A DNA stretch of 64,000 nucleotides from Fibrobacter sp. (GTDB taxonomy: Bacteria; Fibrobacterota; Fibrobacteria; Fibrobacterales; Fibrobacteraceae), in the NCBI GenBank assembly GCA_017503015.1, contig JAFVTX010000041.1, positions 1 through 64,000 of the forward strand, in the 5' to 3' direction. A model generated the notes under the pieces. It was given only the letters and a program-made list of their open reading frames with translations, did no database searches and had not been told where the DNA came from. The translations under genes and the position numbers were made by a program. Below, piece by piece: positions 3,996 to 15,399 of this stretch (position 1 is the first letter of the stretch; each line of letters opens with the position of its first letter).

Positions 3996-4088
3996 AACCG
4001 GACACCAAAAAAGTACTATCAGTTTCAAAAAAATTAGAGTATATTATTCTAAGGATGCAATAGATTGGGCGAATCAAAGGGGAATATT

Positions 4089-5942
4089 ATGAATTTTTCC
4101 AAAAAGATTACGCTTTTCGCCCTTTTGGGGCTAACTTCCATTGCCAACGCAGGCCCCGGCCTTGCTGACGGTGCCGCCAAGTTCGTAGGTAACATCATCC
4201 AAAGCACTCAGGTGCGCAGTGATTTCACAACGCTATGGAACCAGGCGACTGCCGAAAACGGCTGTAAATGGGAATCCATTGAAGGCAGCCGTGGCAACTA
4301 CAACTGGGGTGCTTGCGATGCTGCCTACAACTGGGCAAAGCAAAACGGAGGCTTCTTCAAGTTTCACGCCCTAGTATGGGGCGGCCAGTACCCGAGTTGG
4401 CTGAACGGTCTAAGCGCCGATGAGACCAAGAAGGCCATTACCAGTTGGTTTGATGCCGTTCAAAAGCATTACCCCGACCTGGAAATCATTGACGTGGTAA
4501 ACGAAGCCATTAGAACCGGTAACGGCAGTTACCACTCCGGTTACGGAAGGGGCAACAACATTGTTCCTGCCCTGGGTGGCGACAACAATGACTACGCCTT
4601 TGTGACCACGGCCTTCAAGATGGCCCGTGAACGTTGGCCCAAGGCTATCCTAATCTACAACGACTACAACACCATCCAGTACGATGTGGACAAGGGCATC
4701 GATCTTATCAATACCATTAAAAAGAACGGGGCTCCCATTGACGCTTACGGTCTTCAGGCCCATGACCTGGTAACTCAGGGTGGTGGCTTTGGCGGAACAG
4801 GCGGCGGCGGCGACTGCATGGACTATACCCAGTTCAAAAACACCATGGAAAAGATCCATAGCCAGACCCAAATGCCCATATTCATCTCTGAATATGACAT
4901 TCCGAACACTAATGACGACATTCAGGAACAGTGCTTCAAAGAACAAATTTCCTACTGGATGGAAGCGGACTATGTAGCGGGTATCACCCTTTGGGGCTAC
5001 ATCTATGGTCAAACCTGGCTTGATTGCGACGGCGCTGCAGCAGGTTGCTCTGGCATTATCAAGGACGGCAAGGACCGTAAGGCCATGACCTGGCTCAAGC
5101 AGTACCTGGCCTCCAACAAGGGTGTCAATTCCACCGGGCTTGCCACCGGCGTTACAACGCCTCCCGAACCCCAGAAGCCTTTCAGGGGTGCCGCATTCGA
5201 CATTCTTGCAGACAGGATTGAAGCCGAAGACTTTGACATTCCAGGCATAGGCCGCAACGAAGACGGCACTTCCAACGCCTCTTACGGTGATGCAGAATTC
5301 GAGAACAAAGGCGAAAGTACCTATCGCGAAGGTACCGGCGTAGACATCAAGGATGGTATCGGCAGCAACCAGCACGCCATCGGATGGAACGCCACCGACG
5401 ACTGGCTGGAATATACCATCAATGTCAAAGAAGCCGGCGATTACACCCTGTTCGCCGCCGTGTCAGGCGAAGGCGGACAACTGAAGTTCTCCCTAGACGG
5501 CGAGGATATTGGTGACGTACTGACCGTGTCCAAGTCCAATGCCGAACCCAGCGACGAAGAAGTCGACGAATCCGTCTATGGCGATTTCTTCAAGGTAAAG
5601 ACCAACGTGACGCTCCCCGCCGGAACGCATATCTTGCGCATGACCGTTGTCAAGCAGTGGTTCGACCTCGACTACTTCAACTTTGTCAAGGGCAAGGACG
5701 CCGAAGACAACGCCCCCGTTGGCACCGAAGCCATCGCAGGCAACATCCACATGGCAGTTCACCATTTGGTCCAATACGACCTGATCGACATCCATGGCAA
5801 GCGCCTGGGCAGCATCAGCGCCTACACCATGGACCAGGCCATTGCCACCGCCAAAAATTGGAACACGGTGAAATCTACAGGAGTCTATTTCCTCCGCTCC
5901 AGAGCTACCGGCAAGGTCCATAGCTTGCGCATTGTCAAGTAA
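4089..5942 (+). CDS. Secreted GH10 endo-beta-1,4-xylanase with CBM6-type module (first of tandem pair)
   Basis: The 617-residue enzyme has a signal peptide ending SIANA (about residue 21), a GH10 barrel (about 25-345), a CBM6-like module (about 374-545, starting near ADRIEAEDFDIPGIG) and a basic C-terminal tail ending LRIVK. FHALVWG and IYNDYNT are conserved GH10 strands. By homology the acid/base is E139 (DVVNEA) and the nucleophile E268 (FISEYD). The ATG at 4089 follows AAAGGGG; a longer form beginning at 4065 would place residues ahead of the signal peptide. The next gene encodes a close paralogue. A perfect terminator hairpin follows the stop, so each xylanase probably has its own transcript. 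Confidence 0.95.
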   Translation: MNFSKKITLFALLGLTSIANAGPGLADGAAKFVGNIIQSTQVRSDFTTLWNQATAENGCKWESIEGSRGNYNWGACDAAYNWAKQNGGFFKFHALVWGGQYPSWLNGLSADETKKAITSWFDAVQKHYPDLEIIDVVNEAIRTGNGSYHSGYGRGNNIVPALGGDNNDYAFVTTAFKMARERWPKAILIYNDYNTIQYDVDKGIDLINTIKKNGAPIDAYGLQAHDLVTQGGGFGGTGGGGDCMDYTQFKNTMEKIHSQTQMPIFISEYDIPNTNDDIQEQCFKEQISYWMEADYVAGITLWGYIYGQTWLDCDGAAAGCSGIIKDGKDRKAMTWLKQYLASNKGVNSTGLATGVTTPPEPQKPFRGAAFDILADRIEAEDFDIPGIGRNEDGTSNASYGDAEFENKGESTYREGTGVDIKDGIGSNQHAIGWNATDDWLEYTINVKEAGDYTLFAAVSGEGGQLKFSLDGEDIGDVLTVSKSNAEPSDEEVDESVYGDFFKVKTNVTLPAGTHILRMTVVKQWFDLDYFNFVKGKDAEDNAPVGTEAIAGNIHMAVHHLVQYDLIDIHGKRLGSISAYTMDQAIATAKNWNTVKSTGVYFLRSRATGKVHSLRIVK

Positions 5943-6109: not shown

Positions 6110-7984
6110 ATGAATTTTACTAAAGCAGTTGCGCTTTTTGCCCTGACCGGATTAATCTCCGTAGCCAATGCGGCCCTGGCCGATGGCGGAGCCAAGTTCC
6201 TGGGCAACATTACCACAAGCGGCCAAGTTCGTGACGACATGGGCACCTACTGGAACCAGATTACAGCAGAAAACGGCTGCAAGTGGGGTTCCATCCATAG
6301 CCTTTCTAACGGCAACAGTGGAACTAGCAAATTTGCCTGGGACAACTACGACAAATGTTATGGCGCCTACCAGTGGTCAAAACAAGCCCCCGGACGCCAC
6401 TTCAAGTTCCACGCCCTGGTTTGGGGATCCCAGTACCCGAATTTCCTTTGCAAAAAGAAAAACCCGAGTATTACCGTCGAAAAAACCCGGCAGTACATTA
6501 CGGAATGGTTCGATGCCGTTGCCGCCAAATTCCCCGACCTGGAATACATCGACGTGGTGAACGAAGCCATTTGGGCCGGCAACAACTACCACTCCGGCTA
6601 CGGCAAGCCCGCCCAGGGTGCCGAAGGCCGTAGCACCGACGATACCGAATGCGGTGGTTCCTACATTATCGAAGCCCTCGGTGGCGACCGTGTGGTAAAC
6701 GGCAAGCACCAATACGACTTTATCACTACCGCCTTTAAGATGGCACGTGAACGTTGGCCGAATGCCGTATTGATTTATAACGACTACAATACCCTTACCT
6801 GGCAGATGAACGAAGGCATTGAACTGGTGCAAACCATCATAAAGAATGGTGCCCCTGTTGACGCCTATGGTCAGCAAGCCCACGACTGCAAGGGCATGAG
6901 CAAGTCCGACTTCGAAAGCAAATTGACCAGAATCCATAACGAAACTGGGTTACCCCTGTTCATTACGGAATATGACATTAGCCAGGCCGATGACAATGCT
7001 CAAAAGAATGACTATGCAAACCAGATTCCCTTTATGTGGGAAACAGAATGGATTGCGGGCATTACCATCTGGGGCTACATCAACGGTTCTACTTGGGCAT
7101 CCAACACCGGTATCATTCAGCCAAACGGTCAAAAGCGCGCCGCCATGGTCTGGCTCGAAGAATACTTCAAGAACAATTTGAGCAAGGGCAAGAGCGTAAA
7201 AATCACTCCTAACGGTACCGAAATTGTCTACTCCGAAGAAAAGGAACAGGAACCCTATAACGGAACCGCTATCGTAATTGACGTAAAAGACACGATTCAG
7301 GCCGAGCACTACGATAAGGCCGGTATCGGCTTTGGCAATGACTCTTACAGCGACGGCAGCAGCGACAACAAGGGCGACGCAAATTTCCGCATGGATGAGG
7401 GCGTTGATATCTATTGGGGTGGCACAGACATGAAAGGCCTGGTTATCGGTTACACGGAACCTGGCGACTGGGTGGAATACACCGTAGACTTTAAACAAAA
7501 AGGGCCCTACACTATTAAGGCCGTTGTCTCTTCGGCTAACGAAAATTCCAGTTTCAAGCTTTATGTAGACGACGTTCCCATCACCGATGAAATGATTGTT
7601 CCCAAGACTGGCGATGAAGACTGGAATACCTACCAAGAAATTGGCGGAATTGTGGACAGCGTCTCTACAGGCAAGCACATCTTGAAGGTGGAATCCATTG
7701 GCGGCTGGTTCAATCTGGACTACATCATTTTTGAAAACGTTGCACCGCCCGAAACGCCCGAAGAACCGGAAGGAATCGTCAAAAATGTCAAGATGGTCAC
7801 GGATATGGCTGCGGACTACGATATTATCGACATTCGTGGCAAACGTCTTGGCCGCCTGAGCGCGCGTTCTACGCAAGATGCCATCAAGACCATCAAGGAA
7901 AACAATATGATCAAGTCCTCTGGCATCTACTACATCCGTTCTAGATCCACCGGAAAGATCCAGAGTTTGCGTATCGCAAAATAA
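6110..7984 (+). CDS. Secreted GH10 endo-beta-1,4-xylanase with CBM6-type module (second of tandem pair)
   Basis: This 624-residue enzyme is a paralogue of the preceding gene: signal peptide ending SVANA, GH10 barrel (about 23-345) with acid/base E152 (DVVNEA) and nucleophile E287 (FITEYD), CBM6-like module (about 385-545) with TIQAEHYDKAGIGFG and FNLDYIIFE, and a basic tail ending LRIAK. The linker contains acidic runs (EEKEQE, ETPEEPEG). AAGGGGA lies 8 bases before the ATG. The start of both paralogues (MNFxK) and the tails are more alike than the linkers. The tail resembles type IX secretion sorting domains (GIYYIRS...), so secretion through that system is an inference, not shown. Confidence 0.95.
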   Translation: MNFTKAVALFALTGLISVANAALADGGAKFLGNITTSGQVRDDMGTYWNQITAENGCKWGSIHSLSNGNSGTSKFAWDNYDKCYGAYQWSKQAPGRHFKFHALVWGSQYPNFLCKKKNPSITVEKTRQYITEWFDAVAAKFPDLEYIDVVNEAIWAGNNYHSGYGKPAQGAEGRSTDDTECGGSYIIEALGGDRVVNGKHQYDFITTAFKMARERWPNAVLIYNDYNTLTWQMNEGIELVQTIIKNGAPVDAYGQQAHDCKGMSKSDFESKLTRIHNETGLPLFITEYDISQADDNAQKNDYANQIPFMWETEWIAGITIWGYINGSTWASNTGIIQPNGQKRAAMVWLEEYFKNNLSKGKSVKITPNGTEIVYSEEKEQEPYNGTAIVIDVKDTIQAEHYDKAGIGFGNDSYSDGSSDNKGDANFRMDEGVDIYWGGTDMKGLVIGYTEPGDWVEYTVDFKQKGPYTIKAVVSSANENSSFKLYVDDVPITDEMIVPKTGDEDWNTYQEIGGIVDSVSTGKHILKVESIGGWFNLDYIIFENVAPPETPEEPEGIVKNVKMVTDMAADYDIIDIRGKRLGRLSARSTQDAIKTIKENNMIKSSGIYYIRSRSTGKIQSLRIAK

Positions 7985-9299: not shown

Positions 9300-9890
9300 A
9301 TGAACAAAGAGGAACTTAAAGAAAAATACGGTAAGAAACGGGTGCCTCACGAATGGCGCGGGACGGACAAGTTCACCGCCCTGGTCACCACCTTCTTCGG
9401 CACGGGAATGAGCCCGAAGGCCCCTGGAACCATGGGCAGCCTCGCCGCAACGATTGTCGCCTACCCCATGGCCCTCTTGGCGAGTAGCCTATTTGGAGAC
9501 AGCATCGAACTCTCTCTGGGTCGTTTCTGCTGCGTCAACCTGTATTTTCTCATGGCTGCCCTCATCGTCTTTTTCGGAGCTATCCCGTTTGTGGACAAAG
9601 CCATGCGGGACACGGGCACCGAAGACCCTGGCTGGATTGTGATTGACGAGGTGTGCGGAATCTTCATGGCACTCTCCTTTGTGACGTCGGGGGCCATCAT
9701 GGCATACCCCTGGATTTTGGCTATCGCCTTTGGACTTTTCCGCTTTTTTGACATCTTGAAGCCCCTTGGAATACACCGTTTCGAGAAATTCCCCGGAGCA
9801 TGGGGTGTCATGGCAGACGACCTGCTGGGCGGTATCTATGCAGGAATTTTACTAGGAGGGGGCTCATGGTTCGTCTCTTCTTATTATTGA
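9300..9890 (+). CDS. pgpA: Phosphatidylglycerophosphatase A family protein
   Basis: The 196-residue membrane protein matches PgpA, which removes the phosphate from phosphatidylglycerophosphate to give phosphatidylglycerol. Family signatures are FFGTGMSPKAPGTMGS (about 33-48) near the N-terminus and the acidic DPGWIVIDEV segment near residue 110. Several hydrophobic stretches follow. GAGG lies 4 bases before the ATG, and a TATAAT-like box is at 9258-9263. Its last 25 bp overlap the start of the GH5-GT2 gene, whose ribosome binding site (AGGAGGGGG at 9854-9862) lies inside pgpA, so translation of the two is likely coupled. Confidence 0.88.
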   Translation: MNKEELKEKYGKKRVPHEWRGTDKFTALVTTFFGTGMSPKAPGTMGSLAATIVAYPMALLASSLFGDSIELSLGRFCCVNLYFLMAALIVFFGAIPFVDKAMRDTGTEDPGWIVIDEVCGIFMALSFVTSGAIMAYPWILAIAFGLFRFFDILKPLGIHRFEKFPGAWGVMADDLLGGIYAGILLGGGSWFVSSYY

Positions 9891-12800
9891 TTTTTGCCTT
9901 TGTCACTTTTGCTAATGCAGAAGTGATAAACGCAAGGCCTTCTGTCAACGGCAAGCTCCACGTTCAAGGCACAGACCTTTTTGACGAGCAAGGTAATCAG
10001 GTGGTTCTGAAAGGGGCAAGCACCCACGGCCTTACCTGGTTTCCGCAGTTCGTGAACAACGGGCTTTTCAAGCAGCTCAGCCGTGAATGGAACACCAACC
10101 TGATACGCCTCGCCATGTATTCCGACGACTACGTGAATGGCGACCGAAAGAAAAATCTAGAGGTGCTCCGCAAGGGTGTACAGTACGCTATCGAAAACGA
10201 CATGTACGTGATGGTGGACTGGCATATTCTCACCGACAACAACCCAAACCAGAACCTGGCCGAAGCCATCAACTTCTTCAACATGATGGCCAAGGAATAC
10301 GCCGACGTTCCCAACGTGATTTTTGAAATCTGTAACGAGCCCAATGGTGACTGCACCTGGGAAGACATCAAGGAATACGCGAACATCATCATCCCTGTGA
10401 TACGCAGACATAAGCCCGACGCCCTGATTCTCATCGGCACACCCAACTTTGACCGAGAAATTCAGGAACCTGCGAAAGACCCGGTGGACTTTGAGAACGT
10501 GATGTATTCCTTCCACTTCTACGCCACCTCCCACAAGGGTGAATCCCTTGCAAAGCTCAAAGAAGTCGTAGGTGGCGGCACCCCCATCTTCATTACCGAA
10601 AGCGGGTTCTGCGAGGCCAGTGGCGATGGAAAGATCGACCTGGAAAGCGTCAAGCAATGGTATGCCACCCTGGATTCCCTGCACCTGAGCTATACCGTCT
10701 GGAGCATGTCCAACAAGGAAGAGGAATCCGCCATGGTCCTCTCCGACTCACGGGCGGTGGAATACCTTACCGAAGAAGACCTGAGCCTTTCTGGACTTTA
10801 CGCCCGGGCTCTTTTCCAGGGCAAGGACCTGAACCAGATTCCGCTTATCTACGAGCCCATCTCCAACTTCAAGATTCTCGCTCGTACAAAGCCCTACCTA
10901 GTATGGGGAATTTTCGCCATACCCGTCTTTATCGTAATCCTTCTCGTTTTCCTCATCCAGAAAATCAGGAAGCGTTTCCGCTACAACAGAATCCGCACCT
11001 ACGACGACCTTCTTAAATTCAGCAAGAACGAAAGCGCGAAAAAATTCAATTCAAAGCCGGCAAAGCAGTTCCTTGGCGACCTGTTCCTTTTCTTGAGTAC
11101 GTTCTGCACGTTAATTTATCTCTGCTGGCGCTTTACATGTTCCATTCCGTATGCCTACGGATGGGTCGCCATCATCGGAAGCTGCATCCTACTCGCCATA
11201 GAAGTCCTCGGTTTTATCGAATCGCTCATACACTACAGCGGAATGCTCAAGCTGCGGGAACATCCCCTGCCAGAAATTGCCGACACGGACTACCCCGACG
11301 TAGATATTTTCATTTCTACATACAACGAACCCCCGGAACTTTTGCGCAAGACCATCATCGGCTGCAAGCACATGGACTACCCCGACCGCTCCAAGGTGCA
11401 TATCTATCTTTGCGACGACAACCGCCGTAACGAAATGCGGGGGCTTGCCGAAGAACTGGGCGTAAACTACTTCGACCGCCCGAATAACGAGGGCGCGAAG
11501 GCGGGTAACCTGAACGCGGCACTCGCCCGGACGAGTTCACCCTACGTAGTAACATTTGATGCCGACATGATTCCGCAGAGGAAGTTCCTGCTCAGGACTA
11601 TCCCCTATTTTGTGGATGCCGAGCGTATCAACGCAAGCCTCCCCGAAGAAAAACGCCGCCCCCTCGGGTTTATCCAGACACCGCAAAGTTTCTACACGCC
11701 CGACGTATTCCAGCACAACCTCTATGCCGAAAGAAAGGTCCCCAACGAGCAGGACTATTTCTACTGTGTCATCGAGGCGGCCAAGACCTCGACAAACAGC
11801 GTAATTTACGGCGGTTCCAACACGATTATCTCCCGCAAGGCCCTGGAAGATATCGGCGGGTTCTACACGAAATCCATCACGGAGGACTTTGCGACAGGCA
11901 TGCTGATTGAATCGGCAGGCTACGTGAGCCTCGGCCTTTCGCAGCCGCTAGCCTCGGGTATCGCCCCTTCGACATTCAAGGAACACATCCAGCAACGCAC
12001 CCGCTGGGGCCGTGGCGTTATCGCCACCGCAAAGCAGCTCAAGTTCATGTTCAACCGCAAACTGGGCATCTCGCAGAAACTGAGCTACCTGAGTTCCGTG
12101 CTCTACTGGTTTTCCCCTATCAAGAACCTTGTCTATCTGTTTGCACCGCTCACCTTCGCCGTATTCTGCATCCCGGTTTTCAAGTGTACGCTTATCGACC
12201 TTGCCCTCTTCTGGCTCCCGATGCACCTGATGTCGATGTGGGCACTCCGCATCACGAGCCAAGGGAAGATTTCTGCCCGCTGGAGCGGTATCTACGAGAC
12301 ATCCGTCATGCCCTTCCTACTTATGCCGATAATCAAAGAGACTCTGGGCATTACCCTTTCAAAATTCAAGGTGACAACAAAAGACAAGCGCAATTTTCAC
12401 AACAAGGCCGACAAGAAGACCATCGCCCCGTTTGCTGTTTTGCTCGCCCTGACCGTCGCGGGCATCGTCCACATGAGTTATATGATTATCGCGCTCGGGT
12501 ATATCGAAATTCTCGCCGTGCTCTTCTGGCTTGTGCGCAACACCTACTACCTCACCATGTGCCTGTTCCTCGGGATGGGGCGCGATTCCGATGGAGAACC
12601 CGTGAAGGTCCTTGCTGCCGAAAGGGCGATGGTGAAAAAGCAGGACGGGCATGAAATCGAGGGTATTACCACGAAACTCACAGAACACGGCGTGGATATC
12701 TTTACCGACGAGCTGAATGTCCTGAACCTGGGCGAACCCATCGGCCTCACCCTATCGAAGAAGGTGTACACCCTGCAGGTTACGGGAACGGTGGTTGCCA

Positions 12801-12991
12801 TCCGGAATTCATGCAATCCTGCGATTCCGTGCGTTTACACCGTCGAAATTATGGACTTTGGCGGGCAAAAGGACGAATACATCCAGATGCTCTACGACCG
12901 CACGCCCACACTCCCCCAGAGACTCCAACTGAGTAACGGGCTTGTGGACAACCTGTGGAACAATATCGGCCACCGAATCGTGACCCGATAA
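9866..12991 (+). CDS. Fusion of GH5 endoglucanase and cellulose-synthase-like GT2, with C-terminal PilZ-like domain
   Basis: One uninterrupted 1041-residue frame contains a signal peptide (1-18), a GH5 barrel (about 24-325) with acid/base E158 (ICNEPN) and nucleophile E245 (FITESG), a membrane segment (344-364) followed by KIRKRFRYNR, two more segments (about 404-422, 432-452), and a GT2 domain with YLCDD (514-518), DAD (565-567), TED (672-674) and QRTRW (710-714). These four are the classic processive beta-glycan synthase motifs. More membrane segments and a beta-rich PilZ-like tail (about 925-1030) follow, but the RxxxR and D/NxSxxG motifs for c-di-GMP are not evident. The predicted topology puts GH5 in the periplasm and GT2 in the cytoplasm. 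The start at 9866 is set by a strong ribosome site. The product may be cellulose or another beta-glucan. No bcsB or bcsC is nearby. Confidence 0.88.
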   Translation: MVRLFLLLIFAFVTFANAEVINARPSVNGKLHVQGTDLFDEQGNQVVLKGASTHGLTWFPQFVNNGLFKQLSREWNTNLIRLAMYSDDYVNGDRKKNLEVLRKGVQYAIENDMYVMVDWHILTDNNPNQNLAEAINFFNMMAKEYADVPNVIFEICNEPNGDCTWEDIKEYANIIIPVIRRHKPDALILIGTPNFDREIQEPAKDPVDFENVMYSFHFYATSHKGESLAKLKEVVGGGTPIFITESGFCEASGDGKIDLESVKQWYATLDSLHLSYTVWSMSNKEEESAMVLSDSRAVEYLTEEDLSLSGLYARALFQGKDLNQIPLIYEPISNFKILARTKPYLVWGIFAIPVFIVILLVFLIQKIRKRFRYNRIRTYDDLLKFSKNESAKKFNSKPAKQFLGDLFLFLSTFCTLIYLCWRFTCSIPYAYGWVAIIGSCILLAIEVLGFIESLIHYSGMLKLREHPLPEIADTDYPDVDIFISTYNEPPELLRKTIIGCKHMDYPDRSKVHIYLCDDNRRNEMRGLAEELGVNYFDRPNNEGAKAGNLNAALARTSSPYVVTFDADMIPQRKFLLRTIPYFVDAERINASLPEEKRRPLGFIQTPQSFYTPDVFQHNLYAERKVPNEQDYFYCVIEAAKTSTNSVIYGGSNTIISRKALEDIGGFYTKSITEDFATGMLIESAGYVSLGLSQPLASGIAPSTFKEHIQQRTRWGRGVIATAKQLKFMFNRKLGISQKLSYLSSVLYWFSPIKNLVYLFAPLTFAVFCIPVFKCTLIDLALFWLPMHLMSMWALRITSQGKISARWSGIYETSVMPFLLMPIIKETLGITLSKFKVTTKDKRNFHNKADKKTIAPFAVLLALTVAGIVHMSYMIIALGYIEILAVLFWLVRNTYYLTMCLFLGMGRDSDGEPVKVLAAERAMVKKQDGHEIEGITTKLTEHGVDIFTDELNVLNLGEPIGLTLSKKVYTLQVTGTVVAIRNSCNPAIPCVYTVEIMDFGGQKDEYIQMLYDRTPTLPQRLQLSNGLVDNLWNNIGHRIVTR

Positions 12992-13125: not shown

Positions 13126-15399
13126 ATGCTTTTCAATTTCGACATGATCCAGGGCGTCTATGCCCGCATTCCCGCCCGCGTTGAAGCTGCCCGCAAGCAG
13201 CTCTCCCGTCCGCTCACCCTCGCCGAAAAGATTATCTACAGCCACCTGATCGATGGCGCCGAGAACAGGACTTACGAGCGCGGCAAGGATTTTGCCGAAT
13301 TCCACCCCGACCGCGTGGCCATGCAGGATGCAACCGCCCAGATGGCCCTTTTGCAGTTCACCACCGCCGGTAAGGCCCGCGTGGCAGTGCCCAGCTCCGT
13401 GCACTGCGACCACCTGATTATCGCCCGCGAAGGTGTCGAAAAGGATTTGCCCCGCGCCAAAGAAGAAAGCAAGGAAGTTTACGATTTCCTCCAGTCCGTG
13501 TCTGCCAAGTACGGCATTGACTGCTGGCTCCCGGGTGCAGGCATCATCCACCAGGTGGTGCTCGAAAACTACGCCTTCCCGGGCGGAATGATGATTGGTA
13601 CCGACTCCCACACCGTGAACGCTGGCGGCCTCGGCATGCTCGCGATTGGCGTGGGCGGTGCAGACGCCGTGGATGCCATGGTCGGCCTCCCGTGGGAACT
13701 CAAGTACCCGAAGATGATCGGCGTGAAGCTCACCGGCAAGCTCCAGGGCTTCGCTACCGCCAAGGACATCATCCTCAAGCTCGCAGGCATCCTCACCGTT
13801 AAGGGCGGCACCAACGCCATTATCGAATACTTCGGCGAAGGCGCACGCAGCCTCTCCGCAACAGGCAAGGCGACGATTGCCAACATGGGTGCCGAAGTAG
13901 GCGCAACATGCTCCACCTTCAGCTACGACGATTCCATGAGCCGCTACCTCAAGGTGACTGGCCGTGCCGACGTTGCCGCCGCCGCCGACAAGATTGCAGA
14001 ACACCTCAAGGCCGACCCCGAAGTCGAAGCAAATCCGGAAAAGTACTTTGACCGCGTTGTGGAAATCGACCTCAACACGCTCATTCCGCATTACAACGGC
14101 CCGTTCAGCCCGGACCGCGCTTTCGCCGTGACCGACATGGCAGAATCCCTCAAGGCCACCGAAACCAAGCCGGAATCTACGCCGGTCGTGAGCGCCGCCC
14201 TCATCGGTTCTTGCACGAACTCCAGCTACGAAGACCTCTACATGGCCGCGAACATGATCAAGCAGGCCCTCGCCAAGGGTCTTACCCCGAAGTGCCCGCT
14301 CCTCATCAACCCGGGTTCCGAACAAGTTCGCTACACTGCAGAACGCGATGGCCTCATCGACTTGTTCAAGCAGTTCGGTGCAACGATCATGACAAACGCT
14401 TGCGGTCCTTGCATTGGCCGCTGGGACCGCGCCGGTGCCGACAAGAAGGAACTCAACACCATCGTCCACAGTTTCAACCGCAACTTCGCAAAGCGCGCCG
14501 ACGGCAACCCGAACACGCACGCATTCGTCGCCTCCCCGCTCATGGCCGTGATTGCAGCGCTCAGCGGCGACATCCGCTTCAACCCGATGACCGACACTCT
14601 CGTGAACAGTGAGGGCAAGGCCGTGAAGCTCGACCCGCCGCAGCAGTGTGAACTCCCGCCGAAGGGTTTCGAAGTCAAGGACGCAGGCTACCAAGCCCCC
14701 GCCGAAGACGGTTCCAAGATTACCATTTCCATCAACCCCGAAAGCAAGCGTTTGCAGGCTCTCGCTCCGTTCGCCGCCTGGGACGGCAAGGACATCGTCG
14801 GCGCCCCGCTCCTCATCAAGGCGAAGGGCAAGTGCACCACCGACCACATCTCCATGGCCGGTCCGTGGCTCAACTACCGCGGTCACCTCGAAAACATTTC
14901 GAACAACATGCTCATCGGCGCCGTGAACGCCTTCAACGGCGAAACGAACAAGGTTCTCTGCCAGTGCGGTGAATACAAGGAAGTCCCCGAACTTGCGAAG
15001 ATTTACAAGGCCAAGGGCACGGGTTCCATCGTCATCGGTGACGAAAACTACGGTGAAGGCTCCAGCCGCGAACATGCCGCCATGGAACCGCGCTTCCTCG
15101 GCGTGAAGGCCGTGATTGTGAAGAGCTTCGCCCGCATCCACGAGACGAACCTCAAGAAGCAGGGCATGCTCGCCCTCACCTTCAAGAACGCCGCCGACTA
15201 CGACAAGATCCAGGAACAGGACGTATTCGACATCGTGGGCCTCACCAAGTTCGCCCCAGGTTCCGAGTTCACCCTCGTCGCCCACCACAAGGACGGCTCC
15301 GTCGATAACATCGCCCTCTGCCACACCTACAACGAACAGCAGTGGGCATGGTTCAAGGCGGGTTCCGCCCTCAACCTCATCCGCGCGAACAACAAGTAA
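13126..15399 (+). CDS. acn: Aconitate hydratase (mitochondrial-type aconitase)
   Basis: The 757-residue protein interconverts citrate and isocitrate in the TCA cycle. Its length and order (N-terminal three-domain core, linker near 530-550, C-terminal swivel domain) match the mitochondrial-type aconitase group. Visible signatures are [19 protein letters not shown] and CGPCIG, which supply the [4Fe-4S] cysteines, and [11 protein letters not shown] in the swivel domain. Codon choice is strongly biased towards C-ending codons, as expected for a highly expressed gene. No clear ribosome site precedes the ATG because a 7-nt array fills that position. yicC begins 4 bases after the stop. Confidence 0.96.

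Follow-up and report, generated by a model that had tools for sequence, protein, structure and literature searches.

A GH5 endoglucanase domain and a BcsA/CcsA-like GT2 synthase joined in one protein of Fibrobacter: a putative synthase-hydrolase lacking the c-di-GMP motifs

Most cellulose-type synthases are accompanied by a hydrolase, the role of which is still debated. The analyzed stretch of Fibrobacter sp. DNA (GenBank assembly GCA_017503015.1, contig JAFVTX010000041.1, positions 1 to 64,000; the whole 64,000 nucleotides are hereafter called the window) raises this question directly, since one of its genes was predicted from the sequence alone to encode both partners, a secreted GH5 glucanase and a cellulose synthase-like GT2, in a single polypeptide. 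Is such a fused gene real, where do its halves come from, and what would its product do? The fusion is real. As for the function, sequence comparisons led us to favour, with a probability of about 0.7, a stand-alone synthase-hydrolase, in which a β-1,4-containing glucan would be made and then cut or released by the enzyme's own endoglucanase, without control by cyclic di-GMP (c-di-GMP).

The joining of GH5 and GT2 in one frame withstood closer inspection: all 1041 codons are open with no interruption, a good Shine-Dalgarno sequence (AGGAGG, positions 9854-9859) precedes the start, and Pfam detected both domains, GH5 (PF00150; residues 40-284, E 5e-56) and GT2 (approximately residues 477-780). 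In sequence searches of the PDB, residues 26-318 matched Cel5A-type endoglucanases and residues ~404-963 matched BcsA. The catalytic glutamates named in the original prediction, E158 and E245, proved invariant in every aligned GH5 domain (Table 1). The Glu pair and the fold both agree with the GH5_2 type, a subfamily assigned here from the nearest solved relatives and not by CAZy. The predicted GT2 motifs DD (D517/D518), DxD (D565xD567), TED (T672-E673-D674) and QxxRW (Q710RTRW714) were likewise found in the fusion and were conserved in the family alignment.

In the host genome, which is 2.96 Mb in size and 99.9% complete, the fusion gene occurs in a single copy. A full fusion in one frame was present in 21 of the 80 genomes of the genus Fibrobacter, the orthologues being 67-96% identical, and was interrupted by contig ends or in the frame in two more; no fusion was found among the 88 other Fibrobacterota genomes searched. 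Scanning of contigs revealed the fusion in Fibrobacter metagenome-assembled genomes and, at whole length with about 50% identity, in Lachnospiraceae, among them Butyrivibrio with its cultured isolate CB08. Complete copies were detected in 9 of 79 genomes of the Butyrivibrio-level group, in the family-wide Lachnospiraceae sample (n = 397; three complete fusions and one interrupted copy) and in the class-wide sample (n = 391; one fusion). No Butyrivibrio genome contained both the fused and the unfused forms, the genomes being too few to count as mutual exclusion. Some of the intact copies lie deep within long contigs of near-complete assemblies. That an assembly error or a frameshift joined two separate genes has next to no chance of being true: although one Lachnospiraceae copy (L105:1240-4505) is disrupted by a linker stop codon and by a frameshift within GT2, as in a pseudogene, a re-split gene or an assembly error, and one other locus (L030/L044) is split, the same unbroken frame, without any join at 10.8-11.0 kb, recurred in the 21 Fibrobacter-genus genomes and in at least 11 Lachnospiraceae genomes, all independently assembled.

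All fusions formed one clade in the GT2 tree (support 100/100), with those of Fibrobacter and Lachnospiraceae as sister clades, each supported. In both GT2 trees the fusion clade was nested, with starred support, among unfused Lachnospiraceae GT2s of ccs-like operons, the sampling including neither a named CcsA reference sequence nor RiGT2. The operons of these unfused relatives encode proteins with VTC, DUF4956, CotH, MBOAT and ALGX/DHHW domains (Pfam) and often a GH5, and thereby resemble the published ccsZABHI locus (PMC7710045). By its place in the trees, the synthase half is a descendant of the clostridial ccs-type synthases and not of the Gram-negative BcsA. An origin from the Gram-negative Bcs system was rejected, as the BcsA-like GT2s of Fibrobacterota (L031-L033) were far outgroups with 30-32% identity. 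Because the fusion clade is nested among the unfused Lachnospiraceae GT2s, the two genes were joined a single time, probably in Lachnospiraceae, with later horizontal transfer to Fibrobacter and patchy loss.

In the GH5 tree, the fused domain grouped with secreted Lachnospiraceae cellulases (93/83) and not with the GH5s of the operons, and four of the five checked cellulases on that side carried CBM2. It is therefore likely, judging by the tree, that a digestive cellulase was recruited as the GH5 half. This tree does not favour a direct joining of an operon GH5_2 to the neighbouring GT2, though the approximately unbiased (AU) test did not reject grouping of the fused GH5 with the operon GH5s (p 0.146).

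The unfused relatives showed how often such a synthase has a hydrolase at its side. GH5_2-like genes accompany the unfused GT2 genes of L049-L052 and L109. In three further loci (L108:7046-9919, L131:383-3238 and L090:1396-4217) such a gene immediately precedes GT2. The latter three pairs have the order of the fusion, with the GH5_2-like gene upstream of GT2 on the same strand, but they consist of two separate adjacent genes, their GT2s have no PilZ, and they are basal in the GT2 tree, hence they are a second variant of the pairing and not the direct ancestors of the fusion. A GH5_4-type gene, with β-1,3-1,4-glucanases among its best PDB matches, lies beside the unfused GT2 in L092, and further GH5 genes occur near the unfused GT2s of L093, L094 and L101. 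The hydrolase CcsZ of the Ccs operon belongs to yet another subfamily, GH5_25 (PMC7710045, PMC9693552). The repeated pairing of the synthase with non-orthologous GH5s is strong indirect evidence that its product is the substrate of the hydrolase. Of the earlier proposal that the fusion ties synthesis to trimming, the link between the two enzymes was thus strengthened by the separate and varied GH5s in the operons of unfused relatives, whereas cutting of the nascent chain itself is presumed.

The C-terminal tail had been described as PilZ-like without clear c-di-GMP motifs, and the comparison fully agreed. Neither RxxxR nor [DN]xSxxG was present in any of the 22 fusions checked, while both were kept in all 35 PilZ-bearing unfused relatives and in all three BcsA outgroups. 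Pfam PilZ gave no match in the fusions and matched the unfused protein of L050; the strands of a PilZ-like barrel persist in the AlphaFold2 model of the fusion. The messenger is probably present in the host, since its genome encodes many GGDEF domains, but the fusion protein, to judge from its motifs, should not sense it. In CsBcsA, the gating loop is locked by a salt link to which the arginine of this PilZ motif contributes (PMC10374906). The absence of this arginine from the fusion suggests an unlocked enzyme.

Hydropathy analysis placed a strong membrane segment at residues 346-364, followed by the basic stretch QKIRKRFRYNRIR. Together with the signal peptide-like start, and according to the positive-inside rule, this puts GH5 outside and GT2 inside, in line with the proposed periplasmic and cytoplasmic faces. 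The AlphaFold2 model, built on an alignment of 19 rows, had a mean predicted local distance difference test score (pLDDT) of 75 and a predicted template modelling score (pTM) of 0.58, so that the placement of the domains relative to each other is uncertain. Foldseek matched the GT2 half to BcsA of E. coli and Cereibacter (9b8v, 4p00, 4hg6; E 3e-39 to 8e-34). For the N-terminal domain, the matches were Cel5A enzymes (template modelling score 0.92-0.95, root-mean-square deviation 1.5-1.7 Å). RiGT2 lacks the N-terminal helix that in BcsA pairs with BcsB (PMC10374906), and the unfused GT2 relatives start near the same point. Since the fusion adds a helix at this end of the GT2, its GH5 may hang over the channel exit, at the position taken by BcsB in Bcs.

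The reported lack of BcsB and BcsC in the vicinity was extended to the whole genome: profile searches with PF03170 (BcsB) and PF05420 (BcsC), positive for the E. coli control, gave no match anywhere in the 99.9% complete assembly, which rules out the standard Gram-negative Bcs assembly. Genes of the ccsB, ccsH and ccsI types did not directly adjoin the fusion in the open reading frame (ORF) lists of the window, L045, L046, L053, L106 and L107. Elsewhere in the same genome (L177:1-3960; contig C11, ~13.5-17.5 kb) lies a cluster of VTC-like, outer-membrane efflux-like, HlyD-like and DUF4956 genes. Clostridial ccs-type operons likewise begin with VTC and DUF4956; the cluster could, however, be an export system of no relation to them.

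In the mechanism that we propose, the GT2 half would polymerise UDP-glucose into a β-glucan with β-1,4 linkages and push the chain through its own membrane channel, and the GH5_2 endoglucanase, which the added helix would keep at the outer face, would cut or release the chain as it emerges. Neither BcsB nor BcsC would be required, and an enzyme that has lost its PilZ motifs would not depend on activation by c-di-GMP; we infer that the product is a β-glucan, that the nascent chain is trimmed and that the activity is constitutive or otherwise controlled. RiGT2, a Gram-positive GT2 of a similar general kind, needed neither BcsB nor c-di-GMP to produce β-glucan in yeast (PMC10374906). The ratio of non-synonymous to synonymous substitution rates (dN/dS) was ~0.05-0.09 for the GH5 and GT2 halves where dS was unsaturated, and mostly higher in the linker and PilZ. 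This purifying selection indicates that both catalytic halves are maintained.

Four observations weigh against this proposal. The NCBIfam model TIGR03030 (CelA) matched residues 406-945 with 371 bits, well under its equivalog cut-off of 699 bits, so that cellulose is a possible rather than an established product. No BcsC match that could provide an exit route was found, although the cells of Fibrobacter are enclosed by an outer membrane. The loss of the c-di-GMP motifs was a single event on the tree, which makes its link with the fusion a correlation. Finally, the patchy presence of the gene and its deletion remnants show that it is dispensable.

The alternative that deserves most attention, although we hold it for the less probable one, concerns the product, which could be a mixed-linkage (1,3;1,4)-β-glucan and not cellulose, with GH5 cutting its β-1,4 bonds. 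RiGT2 makes such a glucan (PMC10374906), and the β-1,3-1,4-glucanase matches of the GH5_4-type partner in L092 point the same way, but the nearest solved synthase folds are those of cellulose synthases. Moreover, GH5_2 enzymes are mostly plain β-1,4-endoglucanases. An unlikelier possibility is that the chains are made and cut at once into periplasmic oligosaccharides, the protein serving as a maker of cellodextrins or periplasmic glucans, and that no matrix polymer arises. It would suit a diderm host without a BcsC match, a hydrolase tethered at the chain exit and the report that cellodextrins are synthesised and lost by Fibrobacter (PMC4432691). However, the same protein occurs in Lachnospiraceae, monoderms that lack a true periplasm, and the cellodextrin release of Fibrobacter was described as intracellular synthesis followed by efflux. 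The fullest version of the history, a c-di-GMP-independent, BcsB-free single-chain synthase-endoglucanase that came from Lachnospiraceae of the rumen or gut to Fibrobacter with a GH5 taken from plant-degrading cellulases, and that releases short β-glucans or cellodextrins as part of the cellodextrin release of the genus, is a speculation to which we give somewhat less credit still. Least convincing of these is the idea that GH5 is a membrane-anchored digestive cellulase, the fusion merely anchoring it and GT2 having an unrelated job: the grouping of the fused domain with secreted, often CBM2-bearing cellulases speaks for it, but grouping with the operon GH5s was not rejected, an inner-membrane anchor in Fibrobacter is out of reach of plant cellulose, GT2 evolves under purifying selection with all its motifs conserved, and the GT2-GH5 pairing has recurred independently.

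The proposed synthase-hydrolase shares features with three known systems. Like CcsZABHI (PMC7710045), it combines a clostridial-type GT2 bearing PilZ with a GH5 endoglucanase partner and no BcsB/BcsC homologue; in CcsZABHI, however, the hydrolase CcsZ (GH5_25) has a gene of its own, accompanied in the operon by those for CcsB, MBOAT and DHHW proteins, whereas here a GH5_2-type hydrolase and the synthase form one protein without the PilZ motifs, and accessory genes are absent next to it. The GT2 fold, catalytic motifs, membrane channel, PilZ barrel and outer-face hydrolase recall BcsA-BcsB-BcsZ, but BcsB, BcsC and an intact PilZ motif are missing and the hydrolase is a fused GH5 instead of a separate GH8. 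RiGT2 of Romboutsia ilealis (PMC10374906) is a Gram-positive GT2 with the D,D,D,QxxRW motifs and PilZ, without BcsB and without observed c-di-GMP activation; unlike the fusion, it has not been reported as joined to a hydrolase, and its sequence retains RxxxR and NxSxxG. The open-access literature yielded no description of a GH5-GT2 fusion devoid of the c-di-GMP motifs and present in two phyla, subscription papers and CAZy lying outside the search; the terms on GT2 and cellulose synthase that were looked for were all absent from the genome paper of F. succinogenes S85. GH5 partners and BcsB-free synthases were already known, and the fused, motif-less form in two phyla appears to be new, though earlier notice is possible. 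A one-to-one natural fusion kept in two phyla argues that the hydrolase acts at the synthase and offers a compact two-domain test object. If the proposal is true, a c-di-GMP-coupled synthase family has turned uncoupled, and a specialist cellulose degrader produces its own β-glucan. A single gene working without BcsB could also suit heterologous polysaccharide synthesis.

Within Fibrobacter the two halves of the gene have diverged unequally. Between the window fusion and L046, dS was 0.62 in GH5 and 0.17 in GT2, and between the window fusion and L042 it was 0.50 and 1.73, respectively; L042 was also placed differently by the GH5 and GT2 domain trees. The unequal dS and the discordant placement are a sign of recombination within the fusion gene among Fibrobacter species. 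Two metagenome-assembled genomes carry in-frame deletion scars (L056:7947-8408 and L057:7962-8381), in which residues up to ~60 are joined to ~934 onward, leaving the first ~60 and the last ~108 residues of the fusion. Short matches to the C-terminus of the fusion also occur in G106 and G109, and G060 has, besides a full fusion, an additional, incomplete GT2 half (G060:C2:96393-97631; residues 628-1040, 76%).

Table 1. Coordinates of the fused gene, its parts and its neighbours in the window.
Feature	Position	Strand	Basis or remark
Fused GH5-GT2 gene	9866..12991	+	One frame, 1041 residues; single ORF also in Fibrobacter and Lachnospiraceae
Predicted signal peptide, residues 1-18 (ANA|EV)	9866..9919	+	Sequence and hydropathy
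GH5 domain, GH5_2 type, residues 26-320	9941..10825	+	Pfam PF00150; Bacillus-type Cel5A as best PDB matches
Codon of E158, GH5 acid/base	10337..10339	+	Invariant in 55/55 aligned GH5 domains
Codon of E245, GH5 nucleophile	10598..10600	+	Invariant in 55/55 aligned GH5 domains
Fusion-specific membrane helix, residues 346-364, then basic stretch	10901..10957	+	Hydropathy 3.05; model helix 343-372
BcsA/CcsA-like GT2 synthase with membrane helices, residues 401-900	11066..12565	+	TIGR03030, BcsA fold match, motifs
PilZ-like beta-barrel without RxxxR and [DN]xSxxG, residues 905-1000	12578..12865	+	Model strands; no Pfam PilZ match
pgpA (phosphatidylglycerophosphatase A), context only	9300..9890	+	Pfam PF04608
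Aconitase-like gene, downstream, context only	13126..15399	+	ORF

The end of pgpA overlaps the start of the fusion gene by 25 bp. A functional link between the two was rejected, as another gene, and not pgpA, lies upstream of the orthologue in L045, a different species; pgpA is hence no obligate partner. The aconitase-like gene also follows the fusion in several relatives, and a functional link with it was likewise rejected, since it is a housekeeping gene found with or without the fusion. Upstream in the window, inspection of the translations by eye revealed two tandem genes of secreted GH10-like xylanases (4065-5942 and 6110-7984) with similar extra C-terminal regions.

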